From contig JAJEKV010000026.1 of assembly GCA_021234155.1 (NCBI GenBank), forward strand, positions 15,802,283-15,866,282: a stretch of DNA of 64,000 nucleotides. Direction: 5' to 3'. Under the pieces are notes generated by a model. The model did no database searches. It saw only the letters and a list, made by a program, of their open reading frames with translations, and was not told the origin of the DNA. Source of the DNA: Isoetes taiwanensis (taxonomy: Eukaryota; Streptophyta; Lycopodiopsida; Isoetales; Isoetaceae). The position numbers and the translations under genes were made by a program. Shown one piece after another: positions 2,427 to 18,690 of the stretch (positions are counted from its first letter, which is position 1; each line of letters starts with the position of its first letter).

Positions 2427-2809
2427 TTCTATGATTACAGGTACTTTGTTTCTGCTGGTGCGCAAACTTAAATGGAGGAAGATGGATCTAAACACGAAAT
2501 GGATAAAAATATTCGGGGCAGCCAAAGTGTTGGAGCATATGGAACAGTGTCGATGTGGATGCTGTTGCGACCAGAATTACAATATCAGAAGAGAATTAAT
2601 TTGCCAGGCAAAAGATAGCAGGGGCCGGTTCAACATGGCTAAAGCAAAATCATGTATGTGCATCTACTGCACTTTTTATGAGACGACAAAAGGAAAGGCA
2701 AGAAAGACCAAGAATTTCAATCTGAAATCTTACCACTGAATGCTCTCTCTTTCGAAGATTATGACAGGGACACAGACTCTTTTTAAAAATTAGCAAGGTT
2801 TTTTATCAG
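2427..2809. other. Stretch between LINE and PLE; probable LINE 3' remnant
   Basis: No convincing gene. A short open frame (to 2739) has no recognisable domain and may be decayed LINE 3' sequence. No poly(A) tail or target duplication for the LINE is visible before the T-tract at 2810. Confidence 0.4.
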
Positions 2810-3261
2810 TTTTTTTTTTTTTTTTTTTTTTTATTAATATAGTGATGGATATAGCACATAGTGATTGATATAGCACATATAATGGGTTGAATATTTCCTG
2901 ATAGACTTGTGGCTAAGGTAAAGCAGTGCTACTATTAGCCTATATCATGACATAAGTTAATACTAACTTGATATAAAGCAGAAGGGAAGGATAATGGTCA
3001 CTGGTACCATTGAAACCAGCTAGTAAAATAAATATGGACTTTACTTGGATTTTTACTAGCTTATCTTGACCTTTTATTTAAGGCTATGGTCATAGTAGTC
3101 AAGCGGCTAACCACCTACCTTTAATGATATTTATGTTTTACCTACAATTTTAGTAGTGAAGCGTAGCGTAGGGGTTACTGGCAATACTCTTTGGCAGACT
3201 GGCAACTCCTACCATTGATTGAATTGATATCTAAAGATTTTTGGATTTTCGCACCCAAGAA

Positions 3262-3551
3262 ATGGGTTACGACTTCGGGCTGAGACTTCCTGATCAGAAA
3301 ACGTAAAAAAACTAACAAAGAAGTTTGTAGGCGAGTTTGAGGAGTTCGAACTTGACAATAGATCTCAGATGTTATATGGAGAACCGTAGTGGTAGAGGCG
3401 GCTCGAGCGGAGAAGCTCATACAAATGAGATGAGTACTTGGCCAATCAAAGAAGTGGTAAGCAATATGGAAGTAGACGCCAAGAAGACTTTGGCTCTCCA
3501 CAAAGCATTAACGATACACAAGAAATAGATGAGGACCCCGACTATAATCAG
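3262..3551 (+). pseudogene. PLE 5' coding exon 1, R1 copy, frame broken
   Basis: This matches the intact exon at 10046-10342 but has small insertions and deletions that break the frame within 20 codons of the ATG. Downstream it rejoins homologous sequence and ends at ATAATCAG followed by GT, the same candidate donor as in R2. The donor (phase 0) would join in frame to the acceptor at 5523/5524. Being upstream of ORF1, this is the copy an element transcript would use, so its damage matters. The damage falls in patches typical of the R1/R2 differences and may be an assembly artefact. Confidence 0.5.
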
Positions 3552-4072
3552 GTTTTCGTCATTTGAATAGCTATAGATTGATAATATTTTGACATTTCAT
3601 TTCGGTTCTGAGCTATACGGGAGAGATCTTGTAATAGTTTAGACGTAATAAGATTTGCATATACTTAATGACCTTAGGGTGAATGATACCTAGGCCAAAA
3701 GCTATTGCCATAAAATATAAAGGCCATAGATAATAGATTAAAGCTAGTTTCGTCTAGTGAGTTTAGAGCACTACAAGAAAGGTGTTGCATAATCTGATGC
3801 AGACTAAATGTGTGGTGACAGCAATGGTATAAACTGTAGATGCAAGATCTATAACTCATTCTTTATATTATACCTGTTTCTAAGAGAGAGATTAGGAAAT
3901 ACTTCATAATAATCCTAAGTTATGAATATTGTGAATGATGTTTTAAGAGCTAAAGCGCCCAGTAATATAGTTATAGCTTTGATTCAACGGATTTAAATCT
4001 AATACATGCTATTTGATTATTATTTCTCCTGATACCATTTAGCTTAGACTGACTAATAGGGCAAAGGGCACA

Positions 4073-4167
4073 ATGGGTGATCAGCGAAGAGCTGAAAATC
4101 CCAATGTACCTTTTGGCCCTTGCCTTGCTACCATTTTACGTGCTAACAAGGTATTGATTGGCTGCAG
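4073..4167 (+). other. Candidate PLE exon 2 (PN-PFGPC exon), R1 copy
   Basis: From ATG 4073 the frame reads MGDQRRAENPNVPFGPC and continues to VLIGCR, ending at a consensus donor CTGCAG|GTACGG (4167/4168). A related peptide (EKPNIPFGPC ... VLIGSR) with the same donor occurs in the minus-strand relic at 17858-18690, with changes mostly at third codon positions. That conservation argues for real coding sequence. The acceptor may be ACTAATAG just upstream (about 4055). The phase does not join simply to exon 1 or to 5524, so the full splice chain is unresolved; it could be an alternative first exon. Confidence 0.45.
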
Positions 4168-5523
4168 GTACGGGATTTTCTTCCCATTGTTCTCTTTTGC
4201 GTTATTTGCTGGTTTTTTGCTGTATGGAGGATGGAGATCTTGAAGAACAATACAACTTGATGATTCTGGATGACAAGAAGATGACTTTTCAGGATAAAGG
4301 GCTGTAAAACTGATACTTCTCTTTTTCAAAATGATACTATTAACATATTTTAGTGTATGCTTTTTGAATGCTGGTCACATATGCAATTTTGCATCGAACA
4401 TCATTATAATAGCATAATGGCGACATTCTTAGGTCAAGTTTCTTGCTTTATAGAAGCATGTTTTCATAACTACCCTGCTTCATACTCATATGTTAAACAG
4501 TTTGACATATTATTGCTACCATGCTCTATGGGTTAAACATCTAAGTTAATCAATTATGCTTAAAAGCTTATTTCTGAATACTGTCTTCCGTTACGGGTAC
4601 ATTCCCTATTAAGTCTAAAGTTATGATAAAATGAAAGTTCTGCTGAGGAAGACAGGTTGCATGTCAAGAGATAGTTATGTACTGGATATCAGAATAGCAT
4701 ATAAGGAACCTGTTTGTGTCCCGGGTTAAGATAATACAAGTTCCTTTAGTAGATTCTACATGTTTACATTACGGTATGGTAATAGCTATGAAGTTAGTGG
4801 TCAAAACATTGATAAACATGATTTGTTATATTACACAATAAGAAGGCTCAACAATAATACAAATGGTGAAAGTTGTTCTTTGACGTTTTAAAGTCCCATA
4901 TAAAGATTAGATATTTGGAGAGTTGTAAAATGCCAAGGTAAAGTTTGCACGAGTCCCTAGTTTGCTGGTTGCTACATGAATTATACCTCGTATCATTGTA
5001 CTGTAATTTTGTTGAGCAGTGGTCTCATATAACTGTGGTATAATATTCTTGAACAGAATTATGTAAATTGGGTCTTACACGGGCCTTCCTAAGTAGTCTA
5101 AAATTCTACAGGCCAGTATCTTAATGATGAATAGTTTAAAGTTTTATGTTTCAATGGTTCTAGTCTACTTCTTTCTCAAGACATATGGTACTAAGATATA
5201 TAATGGCTAAATTTAATGGGTAACAAGACACTGATCTAGAAATGCTCAATCTAGTATCAGGGTGATAATACTGCTAAGGGATTGACCGAGGCAGATGTCT
5301 GGTCTAGGTTGACTAGTTCAGACTGGGTTTTTTTTAGACACTTCACCACACTGGAGATATCTGGTGTTGTCTTTTACCTGTTTGCTATTTGTTTGAGCAT
5401 GTATGTTTCCCTATGCTGCTACTTAGGGTACTCCAGTTTACTGACAGTTTCCATAAGATGTCTTGTAAGCCTATATGATGACTGATTTAAATATTTACAT
5501 GGTTTTCTGGATATTTATCACAG

Positions 5524-7089
5524 GATTACCAAGATGACGATGATGATTTCGAAGTAATACTTCCAACATGGAATGCCCAGCTGGTGGAAATTGGATATGA
5601 TAAAAATAGAATTGAGTGCCCTAATTCGGCTGTACAGACCATTCTGTGTTGCATCAAGAATATGAAATTTCATGAAATCGTGCTGGAAAGAGAAGCCATG
5701 AGGACACCTGATCAAATATCCGCTGTTACACATCTTGGCTTCAGTGAATGGCTCATGCTTTTACCACAGATTAATAAGCTTTCTGATAAGGAAGAGGAGG
5801 TATACCCGTTTGTTTATAACTTATATGATAATTTGCCACAGAAAGTATACAGCTGGACCAAGGCCGAAGATGAAAGGGCCAAAGATTTCATCATTGGGGT
5901 AACTGCACTAGAAGAAGTCAATGGGATTAAGAATACACATGCCAAGGAAGAAGAACAGTTACGAATAAATAAACCAGTAGTCCTGGATATGGAATCCAAT
6001 GATATTGATGACCCATTTGGTGAAGCTTTGCTGACTGAAGATGATAAAAAGGTTTTACATCCCTCGGTAGATGATAACAATGGCAGCAGCAATATTGACT
6101 TTAAGTTCACATTGACAAACTGTCTAAGGTTCCCAGTTATACCAGATAGGTTAGTGGAGAACCACGGACTACTTTGCAACCAGGGAATATGGAGAACAAA
6201 AAATTATGGAGCACTTGCTCCTATCACAGAAGAGGCATGGAAGGTACTAGGCGGTATAACGGAAGAGATGGTACAGGAGGCTAAAGCAGCAGCTTTTAGA
6301 ATGACAAGGATGAAAAGGACAAAAGTTAAGCTGGTTGTTGGCACTAAATTCTTCGACAAAAAATGCAACAAAAGTGATCTGATGATAATCTGCCAGAAAG
6401 GACATATGGCCTACACCAACATAACACGAGATGATTTCTATCTTAAACGTATTTGGCGGACTATGTGTCCATATTTTAAGTGTATTTGTGATAACAGAAG
6501 TAAAGGGAAACAGCCCAAGGATTGTGAAGAAAGCATGATCTGGTTTGATCATGCTGTTTGGTATATGCTTAATAACCTAGAGGTTCTTTATCCTGACTTA
6601 TCAGTTGCTGGTCGTATGGTGGCTTTCAGAAATACACTTGAGACCACACTAAAAACTGGGGTTACAGCATTCCTGGGGTACCTGGAGGTAAGGAAGATGT
6701 TAATAGGTATGACTTTAAAGATGGCGAATGACCACGATGCAGATCTGAAAACATCCTTCCCCAAAGGGATTATGACTGATATCTGTGAAAAAACAGTGAA
6801 GTCCATAAAATTCTTGAAAGATTCATATAGTACTGCTAGCACAAGTAGCAATCGTTACTCCAAGAAAGGAAAACCTGTGAAGACCAGTAGTTCCAGCTTT
6901 AAGATCAACGAACCACCTAGAATTACTGTTCTACCCATTGCTGCAGAGAGCACAGACCTATCTGACAGTGCAACAGTTGAAGGACTTATGACCCCCAACA
7001 ATATGGGGCATTCAGTTACAAAGAAAAACGATACATACGGGCCCAAAGGCATTGATGGTACTGCACAAGTCCTGCAATATGATATTTGA
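5524..7089 (+). CDS. PLE ORF1, unknown protein (about 520 residues)
   Basis: The function is not recognised. The frame is open from a good acceptor (TTTATCACAG|GATTAC) at 5523/5524, in phase with exon 1 of the repeat. It starts with an acidic run (DYQDDDDDFEV). No ATG is near the start, which supports splicing from the repeat rather than independent initiation. Later parts include a Cys/His-bearing segment (CQKGHM, CPYFKCICDNRSKGK, residues about 280-325) that could bind metal or nucleic acid, then a hydrophobic-aromatic helix-rich stretch (FDHAVWYMLNNLEVLYPDL), and a Ser/Thr/Lys-rich tail (TASTSSNRYSKKGKPVKTSSS). There is no gag zinc knuckle of the CCHC type, no protease and no GIY-YIG motif. 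It precedes the RT on the same strand, separated by a likely 294-bp intron. A nucleic-acid-binding ORF1 role is only an inference. Confidence 0.65.
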   Translation, partial: DYQDDDDDFEVILPTWNAQLVEIGYDKNRIECPNSAVQTILCCIKNMKFHEIVLEREAMRTPDQISAVTHLGFSEWLMLLPQINKLSDKEEEVYPFVYNLYDNLPQKVYSWTKAEDERAKDFIIGVTALEEVNGIKNTHAKEEEQLRINKPVVLDMESNDIDDPFGEALLTEDDKKVLHPSVDDNNGSSNIDFKFTLTNCLRFPVIPDRLVENHGLLCNQGIWRTKNYGALAPITEEAWKVLGGITEEMVQEAKAAAFRMTRMKRTKVKLVVGTKFFDKKCNKSDLMIICQKGHMAYTNITRDDFYLKRIWRTMCPYFKCICDNRSKGKQPKDCEESMIWFDHAVWYMLNNLEVLYPDLSVAGRMVAFRNTLETTLKTGVTAFLGYLEVRKMLIGMTLKMANDHDADLKTSFPKGIMTDICEKTVKSIKFLKDSYSTASTSSNRYSKKGKPVKTSSSSFKINEPPRITVLPIAAESTDLSDSATVEGLMTPNNMGHSVTKKNDTYGPKGIDGTAQVLQYDI

Positions 7090-7090
7090 G

Positions 7091-7384
7091 GTATGCATAT
7101 TTCTTACATATGTACATTATAGATTATGGTTTCAGTATTACTGGTGAACTTCATTTGCTTGTTTTAAGAATAGAATACCAATGAGGATACTTCTCACTGA
7201 TTAGTGTATAGAGCTCATTAGTTATGAGTACTCTATGGGCCAGGTGGCTCACATAATAATTCCAGGCTTCTGGAATTTCCAATTTGGATCAGATCTATAC
7301 CATCCTCCATATAGCCTGCCGATAGCAAAAATCTCTTTTCGAAAATATGTACTAACATAACATTGTAATACACTGTGGGTGCAG
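7091..7384 (+). other. Candidate intron between ORF1 and RT
   Basis: The left edge is a strong donor (TTTGAG|GTATGC), the right edge a good acceptor (GTGGGTGCAG|AATTTT). The RT frame has no ATG at its start and is open back to this acceptor. Splicing here gives TTT GAG|AAT TTT in the RT frame, but that upstream frame is +1 to ORF1, which itself ends at TGA 7087-7089. Either a frameshift joins the two, or ORF1 has a single-base error near its end, or they are separate proteins. Confidence 0.5.
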
Positions 7385-9454
7385 AATTTTAAAGTCCTAG
7401 AAAAGGACGTCCTAGGCAGAAAGCATCTGAGAGAGAATATACCAAAGCAAAAAAAGAAGATTGTACATTGTACATTTCTCTCTAAAATCTTAGACAAGAT
7501 TTGTCTTCCCAAAATCTTTCTGAAAGCTATGGTAAATATATTGGGCAGTATTGGAGAAGACATTATGGAGGATACCATGTTTGCATGGCGTTATACGGAA
7601 AACATGAGAGACTTATGCTATAAGCCATTCTACATATTTGCCCAGGCAGAAACAGAAATATGTCCGTGTTCTTTACCTGAACTTAATAAGTTTGTGGACC
7701 CTGCAATAGGGCATATCCGCACTACAGACCTTAAGTTTGTTCTAAATCTACCTTTGAGAAACATGTTAAAATTTGGGTTAAACCATATCCCAGATAAAAG
7801 TTTGGAGTTGGATGAGTTGAAAAAAGAATTGTATGCTACTACAGATAAGATCTTTGAAGTACATAGATTCACATACCAAAATATTGACGAGGCTACTATA
7901 TCCTTGGTTAAAGAGGCAGTCTTGTTAGACGTGACTAAAATGGTTAAAAAGGCCTTTAAGAAGGATACCACCAGAAAATTTCCCCTAAACGATGAAAGTG
8001 TAGTCAAGAGTATAGAGTGGATCAATAAATATTTCTATGTTGCGGGTGTTGATAAGGCGACAAATAACCCGGCATTTATTTGCCCTAAACATATGAGAAA
8101 CATGGCACTTGAAAGATTAAGCAGTAAAGATTTTAGGGAGATTGGTACTGAGCAAGTTGCTATCATCTGGAAGGTGAAAACAGAAATGCAACAGATCCTA
8201 CATTATACATATGGTCCTAGTGAAAGATTACCCTACTTATTAGGGATATACAAAGCCCATAAGAAAGATTATCGTTGGATTACTAATGCACATGGAACAG
8301 TATATACTCAGTTCGCCAATGTTATTACTGCTGGATTAAACATGTTCATTGAAGTCTGGCCAGACATTGCTAAAAAGCATTGTGAAAAATTCTGTAACTT
8401 ATTTCCAGGGAAGATTAACCCTAATTGGATGGTCCAATCTATCTATGACGTTATTCTTAACCTACCAGATAAGGTGACTGACATATTTGTTGCAGACATA
8501 ACTAAATGCTATGAGAGTATCCCACTGGTTGGTGATTCGGGTATATGTGCAATTATGACTCAAGTGATTAATGAGGTATGGGAATACAAGAAAAAACAAC
8601 ACTACAACAACAAGCTTTGGGTCAAGTATGATAGGGATGATCAATTCATTGTGAAATGGTTTAAAGTGGATCCTAAGGGTAAGTGTTGGTCTTTACTTAC
8701 CAAAGATATTTTTATCAGGGCAAATATCTGGCTGCTTACTAATTGTTATATAATGAGAGGTGACAGGACATGGGTACAAACAAGTGGAATACCAATGGGA
8801 TTTGCTTGTAGCCCTTGCTGGTGCAACATTTATCTTGCATGGTACGAAGCTGAATTCATTAAGAAACTGGCCATGCAAGGCAGGTATAAAGAGATCATAA
8901 TGTTTAAATCTACCTTTAGATATATGGACGATCTTATGGCACTAAACTGTCCTATCATTAAGAAATTCCTGGGATATGTTTTCCCAACGGGCCATGAAGA
9001 TATAATGATTTATGATATGAATCATCTAGGTATTAAAGAGGAAACCAAAATTGCATTCAAAGATGACCCCTTGGAGGCATATGGTTATCAGGGTAATTTC
9101 CTCAATATGACTGTACAGATTATGAGCAGAGCTAATGGTATTTTTAGGACTATCAGATATGATAAAAGAGATGTTCTCCCATTCAACGCCATTAAATATG
9201 TGCATGCTACCAGCTGTAGACCTTACTTTCAGGCCAGAAACGTCATCATTTCACAGATTCTTCCATACATGTATATTAACTCTTGCCCCAGGACTGCTGC
9301 AATGGATATCAGGGGGATAATCAGCAGTTTTGTTAACAATGGGTTTGATTATAGTGGTCTATGTACATGTGTACATAGATACATCAACAATAATGAATTT
9401 CCAGGGCTTCAATACGACAGCAAGGTCTTGCTACAATTTCTGAAGCCTACTTGA
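7385..9454 (+). CDS. PLE-type reverse transcriptase
   Basis: About 690 residues with a complete RT core. Residue numbers count from 7379, where the open frame begins. The N-terminal block VLNLPLRNMLKFGLNHIP (121-138) matches the PLE 'LSKGLNF.P' block. VDKATNNPAFICPK (224-237) matches the PLE 'RADKG..VV' block. LLGIYKAHKKD (287-297) stands where PLEs have LPK.HK. VADITKCYESIP (371-382) holds the first catalytic Asp, QTSGIPMGFACSP (467-479) the primer-grip side, and FRYMDDLMALN (513-523) the YMDD box. The C-terminal IRYDKRDVLPFN (592-603) and FVNNGFDYSG (651-660) match thumb motifs of PLE and related RTs. No GIY-YIG endonuclease follows, so it resembles endonuclease-lacking PLEs. Internal frame is intact. 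If translation began inside the exon the first ATG would be 7529. Alternative: a related unnamed RT family sharing the YDKRD motif. Confidence 0.8.
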   Translation, partial: NFKVLEKDVLGRKHLRENIPKQKKKIVHCTFLSKILDKICLPKIFLKAMVNILGSIGEDIMEDTMFAWRYTENMRDLCYKPFYIFAQAETEICPCSLPELNKFVDPAIGHIRTTDLKFVLNLPLRNMLKFGLNHIPDKSLELDELKKELYATTDKIFEVHRFTYQNIDEATISLVKEAVLLDVTKMVKKAFKKDTTRKFPLNDESVVKSIEWINKYFYVAGVDKATNNPAFICPKHMRNMALERLSSKDFREIGTEQVAIIWKVKTEMQQILHYTYGPSERLPYLLGIYKAHKKDYRWITNAHGTVYTQFANVITAGLNMFIEVWPDIAKKHCEKFCNLFPGKINPNWMVQSIYDVILNLPDKVTDIFVADITKCYESIPLVGDSGICAIMTQVINEVWEYKKKQHYNNKLWVKYDRDDQFIVKWFKVDPKGKCWSLLTKDIFIRANIWLLTNCYIMRGDRTWVQTSGIPMGFACSPCWCNIYLAWYEAEFIKKLAMQGRYKEIIMFKSTFRYMDDLMALNCPIIKKFLGYVFPTGHEDIMIYDMNHLGIKEETKIAFKDDPLEAYGYQGNFLNMTVQIMSRANGIFRTIRYDKRDVLPFNAIKYVHATSCRPYFQARNVIISQILPYMYINSCPRTAAMDIRGIISSFVNNGFDYSGLCTCVHRYINNNEFPGLQYDSKVLLQFLKPT

Positions 9455-9616
9455 ACCAGGTACTTTCTCTTGAAACTATCATGTGCTTTATTCTAATAAC
9501 ATGGGACATGGTTTAACCCCTACTGTGGCAGTGGGGGTTAGCCATCCCCATGGTCACAATGGTATAAATTCAGGGGCGTTAAACCTTGTACCACGGTAGG
9601 TGGTAGGGTTTTTTTT
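9455..9616 (+). other. PLE 3' non-coding segment with strong hairpin (9514-9540)
   Basis: After the RT stop, TAACCCCTACTG (9514-9525) pairs with CAGTGGGGGTTA (9529-9540) across a 3-nt loop: 12 pairs, one G-T wobble. A TGG/CCA extension lies just outside. The segment ends with GGTAGGTGGTAGGG and eight T before R2; GGTAGGTGGT is the inverse of ACCACCTACC in the repeats (about 3111 and 9895). A 3' structure used by the RT to recognise its RNA is plausible but unproven. Confidence 0.55.
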
Positions 9617-10045
9617 ATTAATATAGTGATGGATATAGCACATAGTGATTGATATAGCACATATAATGGGTTGAATATTTCCTGATAGACTTGTGGCTAA
9701 GGTAAAGCAGTGCTACTATTAGCCTATATCATGACATAAGTTAATACTAACTTGATATAAAGCAGAAGGGAAGGATAATGGTCACTGGTACCATTGAAAC
9801 CAGCTAGTAAAATAAATATGGACTTTACTTGGATTTTTACTAGCTTATCTTGACCTTTTATTTAAGGCTATGGTCATAGTAGTCAAGCGGCTAACCACCT
9901 ACCTTTAATGATATTTATGTTTTACCTACAATTTTAGTAGTGAAGCGTAGCGTAGGGGTTACTGGCAATACTCTTTGGCAGACTGGCAACTCCTACCATT
10001 GATTGAATTGATATCTAAAGATTTTTGGATTTTCGTACCCAAGAA

Positions 10046-10357
10046 ATGGGTTACGACTCAGACGGGGCTGAGACTTCCGGATCAGAAACAGAAAAACTTA
10101 ACAGTGAAGTTTGTAGGCGCGAGTTTGAGGAGTTCGAACTTGACAATAGATCTGTATGTTATATGGAGAACCGTAGTGGTAGAGGCGGCTCCGGGCAGAA
10201 GAGAAGCTCATACAACAGAGATGAGTACTTGGCCAATCAAAGAAGTGGTAAGCAATATGGAAGTAGACGCCAAGAAGACTTTGGCTCTCCACAAAGCATT
10301 AACGATACACAAGAAATAGATGAGGACCCCGACTATAATCAGGTTTTCGTCATTTGA
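10046..10357 (+). CDS. PLE 5' coding exon 1, intact R2 copy
   Basis: From ATG 10046 the frame reads MGYDSDGAETSGSETEKLN, then an Arg/Gly/Ser-rich middle (ENRSGRGGSGQKRSSYNRD, RSGKQYGSRR) and an acidic end (DTQEIDEDPDYNQ). It stops at 10355-10357, but the real end is probably the donor AATCAG|GT at 10342/10343, after exactly 99 codons. Joined in phase 0 to the acceptor before ORF1, it would add a 99-residue, low-complexity, RG-rich N terminus, a composition common in RNA-binding proteins. R2 lies downstream of the RT, so this copy could serve only a following tandem unit. Composition and the intact frame support coding; function is not known. Confidence 0.55.
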   Translation: MGYDSDGAETSGSETEKLNSEVCRREFEEFELDNRSVCYMENRSGRGGSGQKRSSYNRDEYLANQRSGKQYGSRRQEDFGSPQSINDTQEIDEDPDYNQVFVI

Positions 10358-10863
10358 ATAGCTATAGATTGATAATATTTTGACATTTCATTTCGGTTCT
10401 GAGCTATACGGGAGAGATCTTGTAATAGTTTAGACGTAATAAGATTTGCATATACTTAATGACCTTAGGGTGAATGATACCTAGGCCAAAAGCTATTGCC
10501 ATAAAATATAAAGGCCATAGATAATAGATTAAAGCTAGTTTCGTCTAGTGAGTTTAGAGCACTACAAGAAAGGTGTTGCATAATCTGATGCAGACTAAAT
10601 GTGTGGTGACAGCAATGGTATAAACTGTAGATGCAAGATCTATAACTCATTCTTTATATTATACCTGTTTCTAAGAGAGAGATTAGGAAATACTTCATAA
10701 TAATCCTAAGTTATGAATATTGTGAATGATGTTTTAAGAGCTAAAGCGCCCAGTAATATAGTTATAGCTTTGATTCAACGGATTTAAATCTAATACATGC
10801 TATTTGATTATTATTTCTCCTGATACCATTTAGCTTAGACTGACTAATAGGGCAAAGGGCACA

Positions 10864-10958
10864 ATGGGTGATCAGCGAAGAGCTGAAAATCCCAATGTAC
10901 CTTTTGGCCCTTGCCTTGCTACCATTTTACGTGCTAACAAGGTATTGATTGGCTGCAG
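10864..10958 (+). other. Candidate PLE exon 2, R2 copy
   Basis: Identical to 4073-4167, with the same ATG and the same CTGCAG|GTACGG donor. Confidence 0.45.
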
Positions 10959-12120
10959 GTACGGGATTTTCTTCCCATTGTTCTCTTTTGCGTTATTTGC
11001 TGGTTTTTTGCTGTATGGAGGATGGAGATCTTGAAGAACAATACAACTTGATGATTCTGGATGACAAGAAGATGACTTTTCAGGATAAAGGGCTGTAAAA
11101 CTGATACTTCTCTTTTTCAAAATGATACTATTAACATATTTTAGTGTATGCTTTTTGAATGCTGGTCACATATGCAATTTTGCATCAGACATCATTATAA
11201 TAGCATAATGGCAGCATTCTTAGGCTGTTTCTTGCTTTATAGAAGCATGTTTTCATAACTACCCTGCTTCATACTCATATGTTAAACAGTTTGACATATT
11301 ATTGCTACCATGCTCTATGGGTTAAACATCTAAGTTAATCAATTATGCTTAAAAGCTTATTTCTGAATACTGTCTTCCGTTACGGGTACATTCCCTATTA
11401 AGTCTAAAGTTATGATAAAATGAAAGTTCTGCTGAGGAAGACAGGTTGCATGTCAAGAGATAGTTATGTACTGGATATCAGAATAGCATATAAGGAACCT
11501 GTTTGTGTCCCGGGTTAAGATAATACAAGTTCCTTTAGTAGATTCTACATGTTTACATTACGGTATGGTAATAGCTATGAAGTTAGTGGTCAAAACATTG
11601 ATAAACATGATTTGTTATATTACACAATAAGAAGGCTCAACAATAATACAAATGGTGAAAGTTGTTCTTTGACGTTTTAAAGTCCCATATAAAGATTAGA
11701 TATTTGGAGAGTTGTAAAATGCCAAGGTAAAGTTTGCACGAGTCCCTAGTTTGCTGGTTGCTACATGAATTATACCTCATTATCATTGTAATCGTAATTT
11801 TGTTGAGCAAAGGTCTCATATAACTGTGTGGTATAATATTCTTGAAACGTAATTATGTAAATTGGGTCTTACACGGGCCTTCCTAAGTAGTCTAAAATTC
11901 TACAGGCCAGTATCTTAATGATGAATAGTTTAAAGTTTTATGTTTCAATGGTTCTAGTCTACTTCTTTCTCAAGACATATGGTACTAAGATATATAATGG
12001 CTAAATTTAATGGGTAACAAGACACTGATCTAGAAATGCTCAATCTAGTATCAGGGTGATAATACTGCTAAGGGATTGACCGAGGCAGATGTCTGGTCTA
12101 GGTTGACTAGTTCAGACTGG

Positions 12121-12349
12121 TTTTTTTTTTTTTTTTAATGAACAAGTAAAGGTCGATCCCTGATATGCAATCAGGTTTTTCGGATCACCTATCTATTTTA
12201 GGGTTCCTCCTCCCTTGAAAAAGGAGTTTCTGTAAAATTTCTTACTTATATATATATATATAGAAGCCTTCAATTAAAAAAAAAAAAAAAAAGACCCTCA
12301 GGTCCATGGGAGAAACGATTACAAAACAATATAGTTTTCAAGCTGGGCA
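12121..12349 (-). other. LINE 3' UTR and poly(A) tail (minus strand)
   Basis: On the minus strand the LINE coding region is followed by about 210 bp of 3' UTR, including an internal A/T run (12275-12292) and a TA microsatellite (12248-12262), and ends in 16 A (12121-12136 as T on the + strand). The tail abuts the end of PLE repeat R2 exactly. Confidence 0.65.
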
Positions 12350-17857: not shown

Positions 17858-18690
17858 TTAAGCAGGATCCAACTTTTCCTCGAATATGTCACTCTTGCAT
17901 TCAACTTCCCAAGTACTCCTAATATAAACTGGACAAAAGTAGAACATTAAGAAGAGAAGCCCGTACCTGGAGCCAATCAGTACAAAATTAGCCATAAACT
18001 GGGTAAATTTGCAAGGGCCAAAAGGTATGTTAGGCTTCTCGACTATCAACCGTTTGCCTAATGTAATCCTTTTGCCCAAGGATAAAAAAGAGCTCAGAAG
18101 AGAATGCCATAATATAAAGCAAATGAGAGAGTCAACATTTAATGATCTATATAGAAGATGAAACATTATATAAGAATAAAGACGTAACCTTCTATAATTT
18201 TGATTGGGAATGATCATGACCTTTTAAGCACAATAGTGCTAGAAAGATATATGTTTATACCCAAGGCTAATAAAAAAGCCCTATTAAACAACCTTACACA
18301 AACAAATATCTGGTTATCTTCCTTGTCAGAGGCATGCTCACCCAGATATTGGGTTTCAGCAACGAAATGTGAAGTATCACCATAGATCTGTCTATGGGAA
18401 TTTTGGAACCTTTTGTTTTGAGGCTAGCCACCATAGTTATGCTTGACACGTTTATTGTAATTATCCATATCTCTATCCAGATCTAAGCCTTGCATGCAAA
18501 AAGCTATTTTCCTATTAAGGATAGAATCATTCAAACGTTGCTTGGCCACATCATAAATGAGAAGGTCTTCTTCCAGGATAAGGTCCCATTAATCAATATC
18601 TTCAAAAGCTCAGGAAATCTTATTCAATGTATCAACCAGACTTAAATCGAGTCTGTCAAATCTTATGGGGAAGAGTCCAACAAATATTAG
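17858..18690 (-). pseudogene. Diverged relic of PLE 5' exons
   Basis: Reading on the minus strand, a basic then acidic segment ends in ASDKEDNQIFV (about 18300-18690), resembling exon 1 of the PLE (DEDPDYNQ then VFV). Further on, VEKPNIPFGPC ... VLIGSR ends at a donor CTCCAG|GTACGG near 17970. PLE exon 2 has AENPNVPFGPC ... VLIGCR and CTGCAG|GTACGG. Order and strand are consistent with a second, older family of the same group. In-frame stops are present and no ORF1 or RT follows. The exon-2 match is good; the exon-1 match is weak. Confidence 0.5.

Follow-up and report, generated by a model that had tools for sequence, protein, structure and literature searches.

The window, a 64,000-nucleotide stretch of the Isoetes taiwanensis genome (contig JAJEKV010000026.1, positions 15,802,283 to 15,866,282, forward strand), contains an element in which two long direct repeats, R1 and R2, enclose an internal region, int. 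An initial annotation had described it as an intron-bearing Penelope-like element (PLE) of two open reading frames (ORFs), and we analyzed its coding parts, non-coding signals, ends and relatives, searching the host assembly of 1.66 Gb in 1110 contigs. The element encodes ORF1 and a reverse transcriptase (RT), and a folded RNA in its first intron, element C, is probably the place at which copying into DNA starts.

Element layout and coding capacity

The layout and the coding parts are as follows (window coordinates; a slash marks a splice junction).

2810-12136, +: whole element, from the left T23 tract to the right T16 tract; the single R-int-R element in the window
2810-2832, +: outer T-run on the left side (T23), marking the insertion point; related copies of the interrupted long interspersed nuclear element (LINE) have T6-7 or a T-rich stretch here
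2825-5335, +: R1, upstream long direct repeat from self-comparison, resembling a pseudo-long terminal repeat (pseudo-LTR, pLTR)
3262-3551, +: exon 1 in R1, ORF1 N-terminus; frame broken in this assembly copy; donor CAG/GT at 3552
3552-5523, +: intron 1, which extends across the R/int boundary and includes RNA elements B and C; conserved donor and acceptor
5336-9608, +: int, between R1 and R2
5524-7090, +: exon 2, ORF1 body, 521 codons (620 with the R2-type exon 1); stop TGA at 7087-7089
7079-7081, +: ATG of the RT ORF, overlapping the ORF1 stop; predicted to be spliced from 7090 to 7385
7091-7384, +: intron 2, with a CTAAC branch-like site
7385-9454, +: RT exon, 689 codons, with CPCS upstream of the RT core, YMDD, and no endonuclease domain found
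9609-9616, +: T8 at the int/R junction
9609-12129, +: R2, downstream long direct repeat from self-comparison
10046-10342, +: exon 1 copy of R2, 99 codons with an uninterrupted frame between ATG and CAG/GT
12121-12136, +: outer T-run on the right side (T16); next to it lies the second part of the LINE that the element interrupts

The long direct repeats reported earlier were borne out: R1 (2825-5335) and R2 (9609-12129) are 98.2% identical over 2527 columns. They differ by 20 events, 14 of which lie at CHG sites where 3.6 would be expected. An excess at CHG sites (p < 0.05) was also found in six of eight other copies, the exceptions being L014 and L019, and the differences cluster at such sites in the window, L012, L015, L022, L023, L026 and L027. 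Given that 14 of the 20 events fall at CHG sites, part of the difference between R1 and R2 is probably base-calling error at methylated CHG sites; the pattern is as expected for read errors at methylated plant DNA and suggests that frames in the assembly need cautious judgement.

The protein encoded by exon 1, which lies inside R, begins with MGYDSDG and is acidic and then RG-rich. Like ORF1 and RT, exon 1 is preserved as coding sequence. It could be aligned in nine elements, the window included; in six of them (window, L012, L013, L014, L016, L019) one or more copies have a frame open roughly as far as the donor, and in L015, L017/L018 and L030 the frame is broken. In L020-L029 no match was found at the alignment threshold, yet the first part of the exon matches in L021 and L029. 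The junction from exon 1 to the exon at 5524 is in phase 0, and the acceptor before 5524 reads CAG/G in 12 of 15 rows. Intron 2 has a GT donor and a TGCAG acceptor in all 14 aligned copies and CTAAC in 12 of them, and in all 14 a TGA or TAA stands immediately 5′ of the donor. An RT-frame ATG overlaps the ORF1 stop in 11 of the 14 (ACG in two, TTG in one), an overlap that suggests stop-start coupling of ORF2 translation. This conservation of splice sites across copies upholds the earlier description of an intron-bearing element of two ORFs with an exon inside its repeats. Intron 2 also holds a conserved hairpin-like stretch, AGAGCTCATTAGTTATGAGTACTCT, at window positions 7200-7260.

We next considered selection on the two proteins, using open-frame copies only (11 RT and 10 ORF1). 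The ratio of nonsynonymous to synonymous substitution rates (dN/dS) was 0.06-0.10 for RT (median 0.083, from the 6 of 55 pairs with dS defined) and 0.04-0.08 for ORF1 (median 0.057, from 9 of 45 pairs). The exon alignments omit L016, L018 and L030, and L024 and L025 also dropped out. Judged by these ratios, ORF1 and RT are under purifying selection.

The RT identification stands as well, with FRYMDD inside an open frame of 697 codons (7361-9451). RVT_1 is matched by all 11 family RTs (best E 1.5e-6), the match of the window RT (E 1.7e-5) lying below the Pfam cut-off. When the three forward frames of 2810-9608 were scanned with Pfam at E ≤ 1, only RVT_1 and a weak TIR_3 match appeared. In that scan there was no GIY-YIG domain, including an N-terminal one, in agreement with the initial annotation; no RNase H, integrase or protease family; and no tyrosine recombinase, a trait of DIRS elements. 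The relatives of ORF1 likewise showed no GIY-YIG. ORF1 itself matched nothing in PDB and nothing in Pfam below E 0.03, again as described earlier, and a PDB profile search with the RT returned no RT among its matches. Fold models of the RT had a predicted confidence score (pLDDT) of 34.6 from a single sequence and 45.0 from 11 sequences, with a best Foldseek E of 4.1, and were unusable and unused. A CPCS motif of the CxC type precedes the RT core and is invariant in the 11 RTs.

A DNA search of the assembly with the RT listed 41 matches, the best 40 of 851 first-look candidates having been scored, and a protein search listed 68 rows, with 66 of 4797 candidates scored and two elements giving two rows each; these are candidates and not copy numbers. 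Among the 68 best-scored RT rows listed, 55 have no stop codon, which together with the near-identical repeats supports the recent activity proposed for the family, and their identities form two groups, at 62-100% and 53-56%. Layout was read in 19 stretches, taken as 17 elements plus L030, which was partly covered and left out of the census; L017 and L018, 13 kb apart, were counted as one interrupted element on the assumption that they belong together. R blocks (B, or the R half of C) flank the RT on both sides in 11 of these 17 other elements, so that further genomic copies with the R-int-R layout, on which the initial annotation had made its case depend, do exist. In L058, a copy from the 53-56% group, the junction GGAGGTAGG-T7-ATATA is retained.

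Conserved RNA elements in the repeats and int

Three non-coding blocks and a T-run recur in the relatives.

4047-4219, +: RNA element B, non-coding and conserved, with a 54-pair structure tested; second copy in R2
5217-5383, +: RNA element C, whose helix 1 joins the R end to the int start around U8
5328-5335, +: T8/U8 at the R/int junction, putative reverse-transcription start, identical in all 13 rows; also the point at which R2 ends
9505-9608, +: element D, conserved 3′ end of int, ending in GGTAGGTGGTAGGG before T8

In a profile over nine relatives, B, C and D were conserved about as strongly as the coding exons or more so, with 40-nt means of 0.86-0.91, 0.85-0.92 and 0.76-0.89, respectively. 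A coding exon proposed near 4167 did not survive this comparison: relatives carry indels of 1-2 nt and in-frame stops there, the DNA is still conserved, and the region belongs to the RNA structure of B.

Both B and C covary. In B, 14 of 54 pairs had two-sided changes (7.6 in shuffles, with 1 of 500 reaching the observed count), and in C the figure was 19 of 58 (7.1 in shuffles, with 0 of 500 reaching it), helix 1 of C alone having such changes in 9 of its 14 pairs. Pairing was kept in 93.7% of cells for B and 96.8% for C, against 40-52% and 33-47% when the structures were slid, controls that lean in favor of the structures because these were derived from the same sequences as were tested. The B alignment used 16 of 28 sequences, omitting L017, L020, L024 and nine second R copies, and the C and D alignments omit L015, L017 and L018 on account of base-call damage. 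The fold of B is constant in most copies read and differs in L017, L020 and one copy of L015. For D, 31 pairs were predicted, six of them doubly changed by a script count made without a shuffle control. A long-range pairing of GGTAGGTGG at the int end with CCACCTACC at the R start was found in the window and was set aside, as it is not conserved. A relic of B (76% over 108 nt) lies at window positions 17933-18064 on the minus strand, and no other element part was matched near it.

Near-constant G-U pairs in B and C indicate that the sense strand is the folded strand. This bears on the antisense template RNA proposed for rotifer Penelope in PMC3846280, with which introns would be kept and would persist without any role. 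Because B and C covary as sense RNA, and their G-U pairs would be impossible in antisense, such a template fits less well here and we regard it as very unlikely.

A search with C listed the best 40 of 908 candidates as 40 rows, some of which lie 2.7-3.1 kb apart on contigs C1107, C1034, C1030 and C1078. The sole unit read of these arrays, L059 on C1034, is a tandem unit 2.7 kb long, in which B, C and D follow one another in this order, with T7-T8 at its junctions. At E 1e-4 nothing in it matches exon 1, ORF1 or RT, its forward strand has no ORF of 80 codons, and about 2 kb of it was unrecognised. Since this unit carries B, C and D and no coding match, the three blocks look like the signals acting in cis and, to go by the same unit, may suffice in trans.

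Ends, target sites and the proposed route of copying

We then turned to the ends of the element. In the ten elements with both ends located, outer T-runs measure 10-31 on the left and 11-27 on the right; the window outside the element (54.7 kb) has just five T runs and five A runs of nine or more. A 13-bp flank match in L013 does not abut the T-runs, and eight of the ten elements tested for flanking duplication show none, the test of L017/L018 having been made with no shuffle control. To the left of L012 and L013, the flank resembles the R end of another copy (by eye, and for L012 also by alignment). In the window, positions 1-2809 and 12137-12292 are two parts of one plus-strand L1-type LINE, interrupted in its 3′ region, so that the right T-run cannot be a poly-A tail belonging to a LINE on the minus strand. 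Six of ten related LINE copies that we cut out (L042-L044, L046, L047, L050) continue without an insertion, and have T6-7 (two copies) or an interrupted T-rich stretch (four copies) at this point; an exact empty sister site was not found among the ten.

Like LTR retrotransposons, the element has long direct repeats that are near-identical within a copy. R could thus be a true LTR, remade as strands are transferred on a transcript of one copy; C, which extends across the R1 end, would be its primer-binding region, and D, whose purine-rich GGTAGGTGGTAGGG lies directly 5′ of R2, a polypurine-like tract. Unlike in LTR retrotransposons, the Pfam scan found no RNase H, integrase or protease family, and there is no constant flanking duplication beyond T: the ends are T-runs, with no other adjoining duplication in nine of ten elements. 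Tandem copies also exist, and we consider replication of the LTR kind improbable.

The repeats are alike within a copy and far less so between copies. Self-comparison of 16 loci found a long R1/R2 repeat in nine (92.1-99.7%), in L013 as two pieces of 98.8% and 90.0%. Between copies, R is 92-94% identical to the nearest element (L017/L018) and about 66-77% identical in the exon 1 region of others where alignable, most of the remaining R being unalignable beyond the conserved blocks. R1 and R2 must therefore be made alike at insertion or afterwards, and the T-run ends at different sites favor insertion as that moment. The same ends, of one kind in ten elements, argue against repeats that have no other source than the assembly or the unequal recombination of tandem copies, outside any transposition cycle; although tandem copies exist and probable base-call damage is visible, we hold that origin to be extremely unlikely.

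In one tandem, on C1031, three copies of the repeated part lie at distances of 6.9 and 7.2 kb and are 98.4-98.7% identical, and two RTs are present; in L027 the sequence goes on into int past R2, and a further RT then follows (C1028). Tandem copies and R-int-R products would both fit a retrozyme-like route, in which a unit-length R-int circle of RNA is copied for more than one turn. No Rfam ribozyme, including the hammerhead, was found in 2700-12300 or in B or C alone, where matches were weak and far below gathering scores, although a divergent motif could escape such a search; we think this circular route unlikely.

The layout, the splice-site conservation, the coding selection, the covarying RNAs, the T-run ends, the interrupted T-rich LINE site, the tandem copies and the B-C-D unit can all be read from the sequences themselves. 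We interpret them as marks of an autonomous retrotransposon that works in a Penelope-like manner, with a spliced messenger, an unspliced tandem or circular template and an internal start at U8 on an A tract, a reading to which we give a probability of roughly two in three. Spliced RNA would yield ORF1 (~620 aa) and RT, the latter through the ATG that overlaps the ORF1 stop. Removal of intron 1 would take out B and C and leave only unspliced RNA usable as template: as C takes in parts of both R and int, and lies together with B in intron 1 (3552-5523), the start site would exist only at the R/int junction and only in unspliced RNA. Reverse transcription would begin within that RNA, at the U8 of C annealed to an A tract where the genome is nicked or broken, copy R, int and R from the tandem or circular template, and end at the U8/T8 in front of R, joining the T side of the target tract. 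R2 in fact ends at the U8 that lies within C at the R/int junction.

Several observations weigh against this interpretation. As an R-int-R copy has a single C, nothing but R would come from its own transcript, and a tandem or circular template would be needed. No endonuclease was recognised in the forward frames by the Pfam scan, and one of the ten elements tested does have a flanking duplication beyond T (L026, imperfect, 31 bp). R blocks lie on one side only in 6 of the 17 sampled elements (L016, L020, L021, L024, L025, L028), the int half of C was not detected in the C1031 tandem, and L058, the one copy read of the 53-56% RT lineage, has no R-int-R in 9.9 kb. Among the RNA measures, one of five for B (further pair types) was not above shuffles, and the shared source of structures and test sequences noted above counts on this side too.

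With some reserve, we consider it possible that intron 1 is kept as a template signal that sorts template from messenger, and that U8 in a structured RNA base-pairs into A/T tracts in a telomerase-like way, an internal RNA start site thus serving dispersed transposition, without an endonuclease of the known PLE classes, B, C and D being perhaps sufficient in trans. To the questions of why PLEs keep introns and how their pseudo-LTRs form, this family offers a concrete, testable answer, a reverse-transcription start signal carried by an intron, together with a natural minimal element (B, C and D).

Relation to known retroelements

The element shares with the PLE order its pseudo-LTRs that include the coding start, its tandem or partial-tandem copies and the introns, with conserved splice sites, in its genomic copies, and on these sequence traits its identity is likely Penelope-like. 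It lacks a defining trait (GIY-YIG, or telomere location) of each named subgroup, and we therefore file it as PLE-like, outside the named clades: a dispersed plant lineage in which no endonuclease has been recognised.

Endonuclease-bearing (EN+) Penelope/Poseidon PLEs, including PAc of Anolis, have terminal direct repeats that cover the coding start, tandem or partial-tandem copies and, in some, introns, according to PMC3846280 and PMC11167929. They also share the internal initiation past the pLTR that we propose for the Isoetes element; in a lizard PLE, reverse transcription starts 111-118 nt into the ORF beyond the pLTR, in a tandem arrangement (PMC11167929). In contrast to EN+ PLEs, the Isoetes element has no GIY-YIG found, a separate ORF1, no Rfam hammerhead, T-tract ends and covarying B and C, and its repeats are 2.5 kb long, compared with ~0.2 kb in the rotifer examples given in PMC3846280. 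An RT without endonuclease is known in plants from the EN-deficient PLEs (Athena, and those of Selaginella and conifers, in PMC9033089 and PMC12477314), conifers also having Dryad elements (PMC9033089). Rotifer and Selaginella EN-deficient PLEs are reported to be telomere-associated (for Selaginella, PMC12477314), which sets them apart by description from the Isoetes element, which sits inside a LINE in a window with no telomeric array. Penelope is active in Wollemi pine (PMC10473749), Chlamys PLEs occur in a brown alga (PMC12477816), and the PLE-TERT relationship and terminons are treated in PMC5718144 and PMC6431247. Searches of openly licensed papers listed no title or abstract opening that describes such an element.

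Outside the host, three stretches were picked up when prokaryote genomes were scanned with a motif. L003 (JACCHT010000015.1), from a mussel-symbiont bin, has a fragment 41% identical over 41 aa (E 4e-7), the single relative detected beyond the host; of the other two, L001 had a match no better than E 1 and L002 had none. Seven stretches came from a scan for the canonical PLE motif B, and an RT-like frame was present in none of them; neither viral contigs (no confirmed relative) nor plasmids (none) added to these. L003 holds a decayed related RT, with one profile match at E 2.9e-6 and no Pfam family in three reverse frames; its RT is animal-type and the contig is probably mussel host DNA.

Y-x-x-I-P after the motif A Asp is a PLE/TERT trait. 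The Naiad/Chlamys PLEs, with an N-terminal endonuclease, were reportedly defined by Craig and colleagues in 2021 by a CxC linker ahead of the RT. The Isoetes element has a CxC motif in that place, CPCS, and differs in that no N-terminal GIY-YIG was found and in its two ORFs with introns. The motif B resembling GIPMGTNCAP, as in the mussel-bin fragment, is presumably a family likeness to Naiad/Chlamys. A plant origin can also be read from the sequence itself: there is an L1 that has a zf-RVT domain, there are Copia domains and a fragment of an integrase, and there is a PPR protein.

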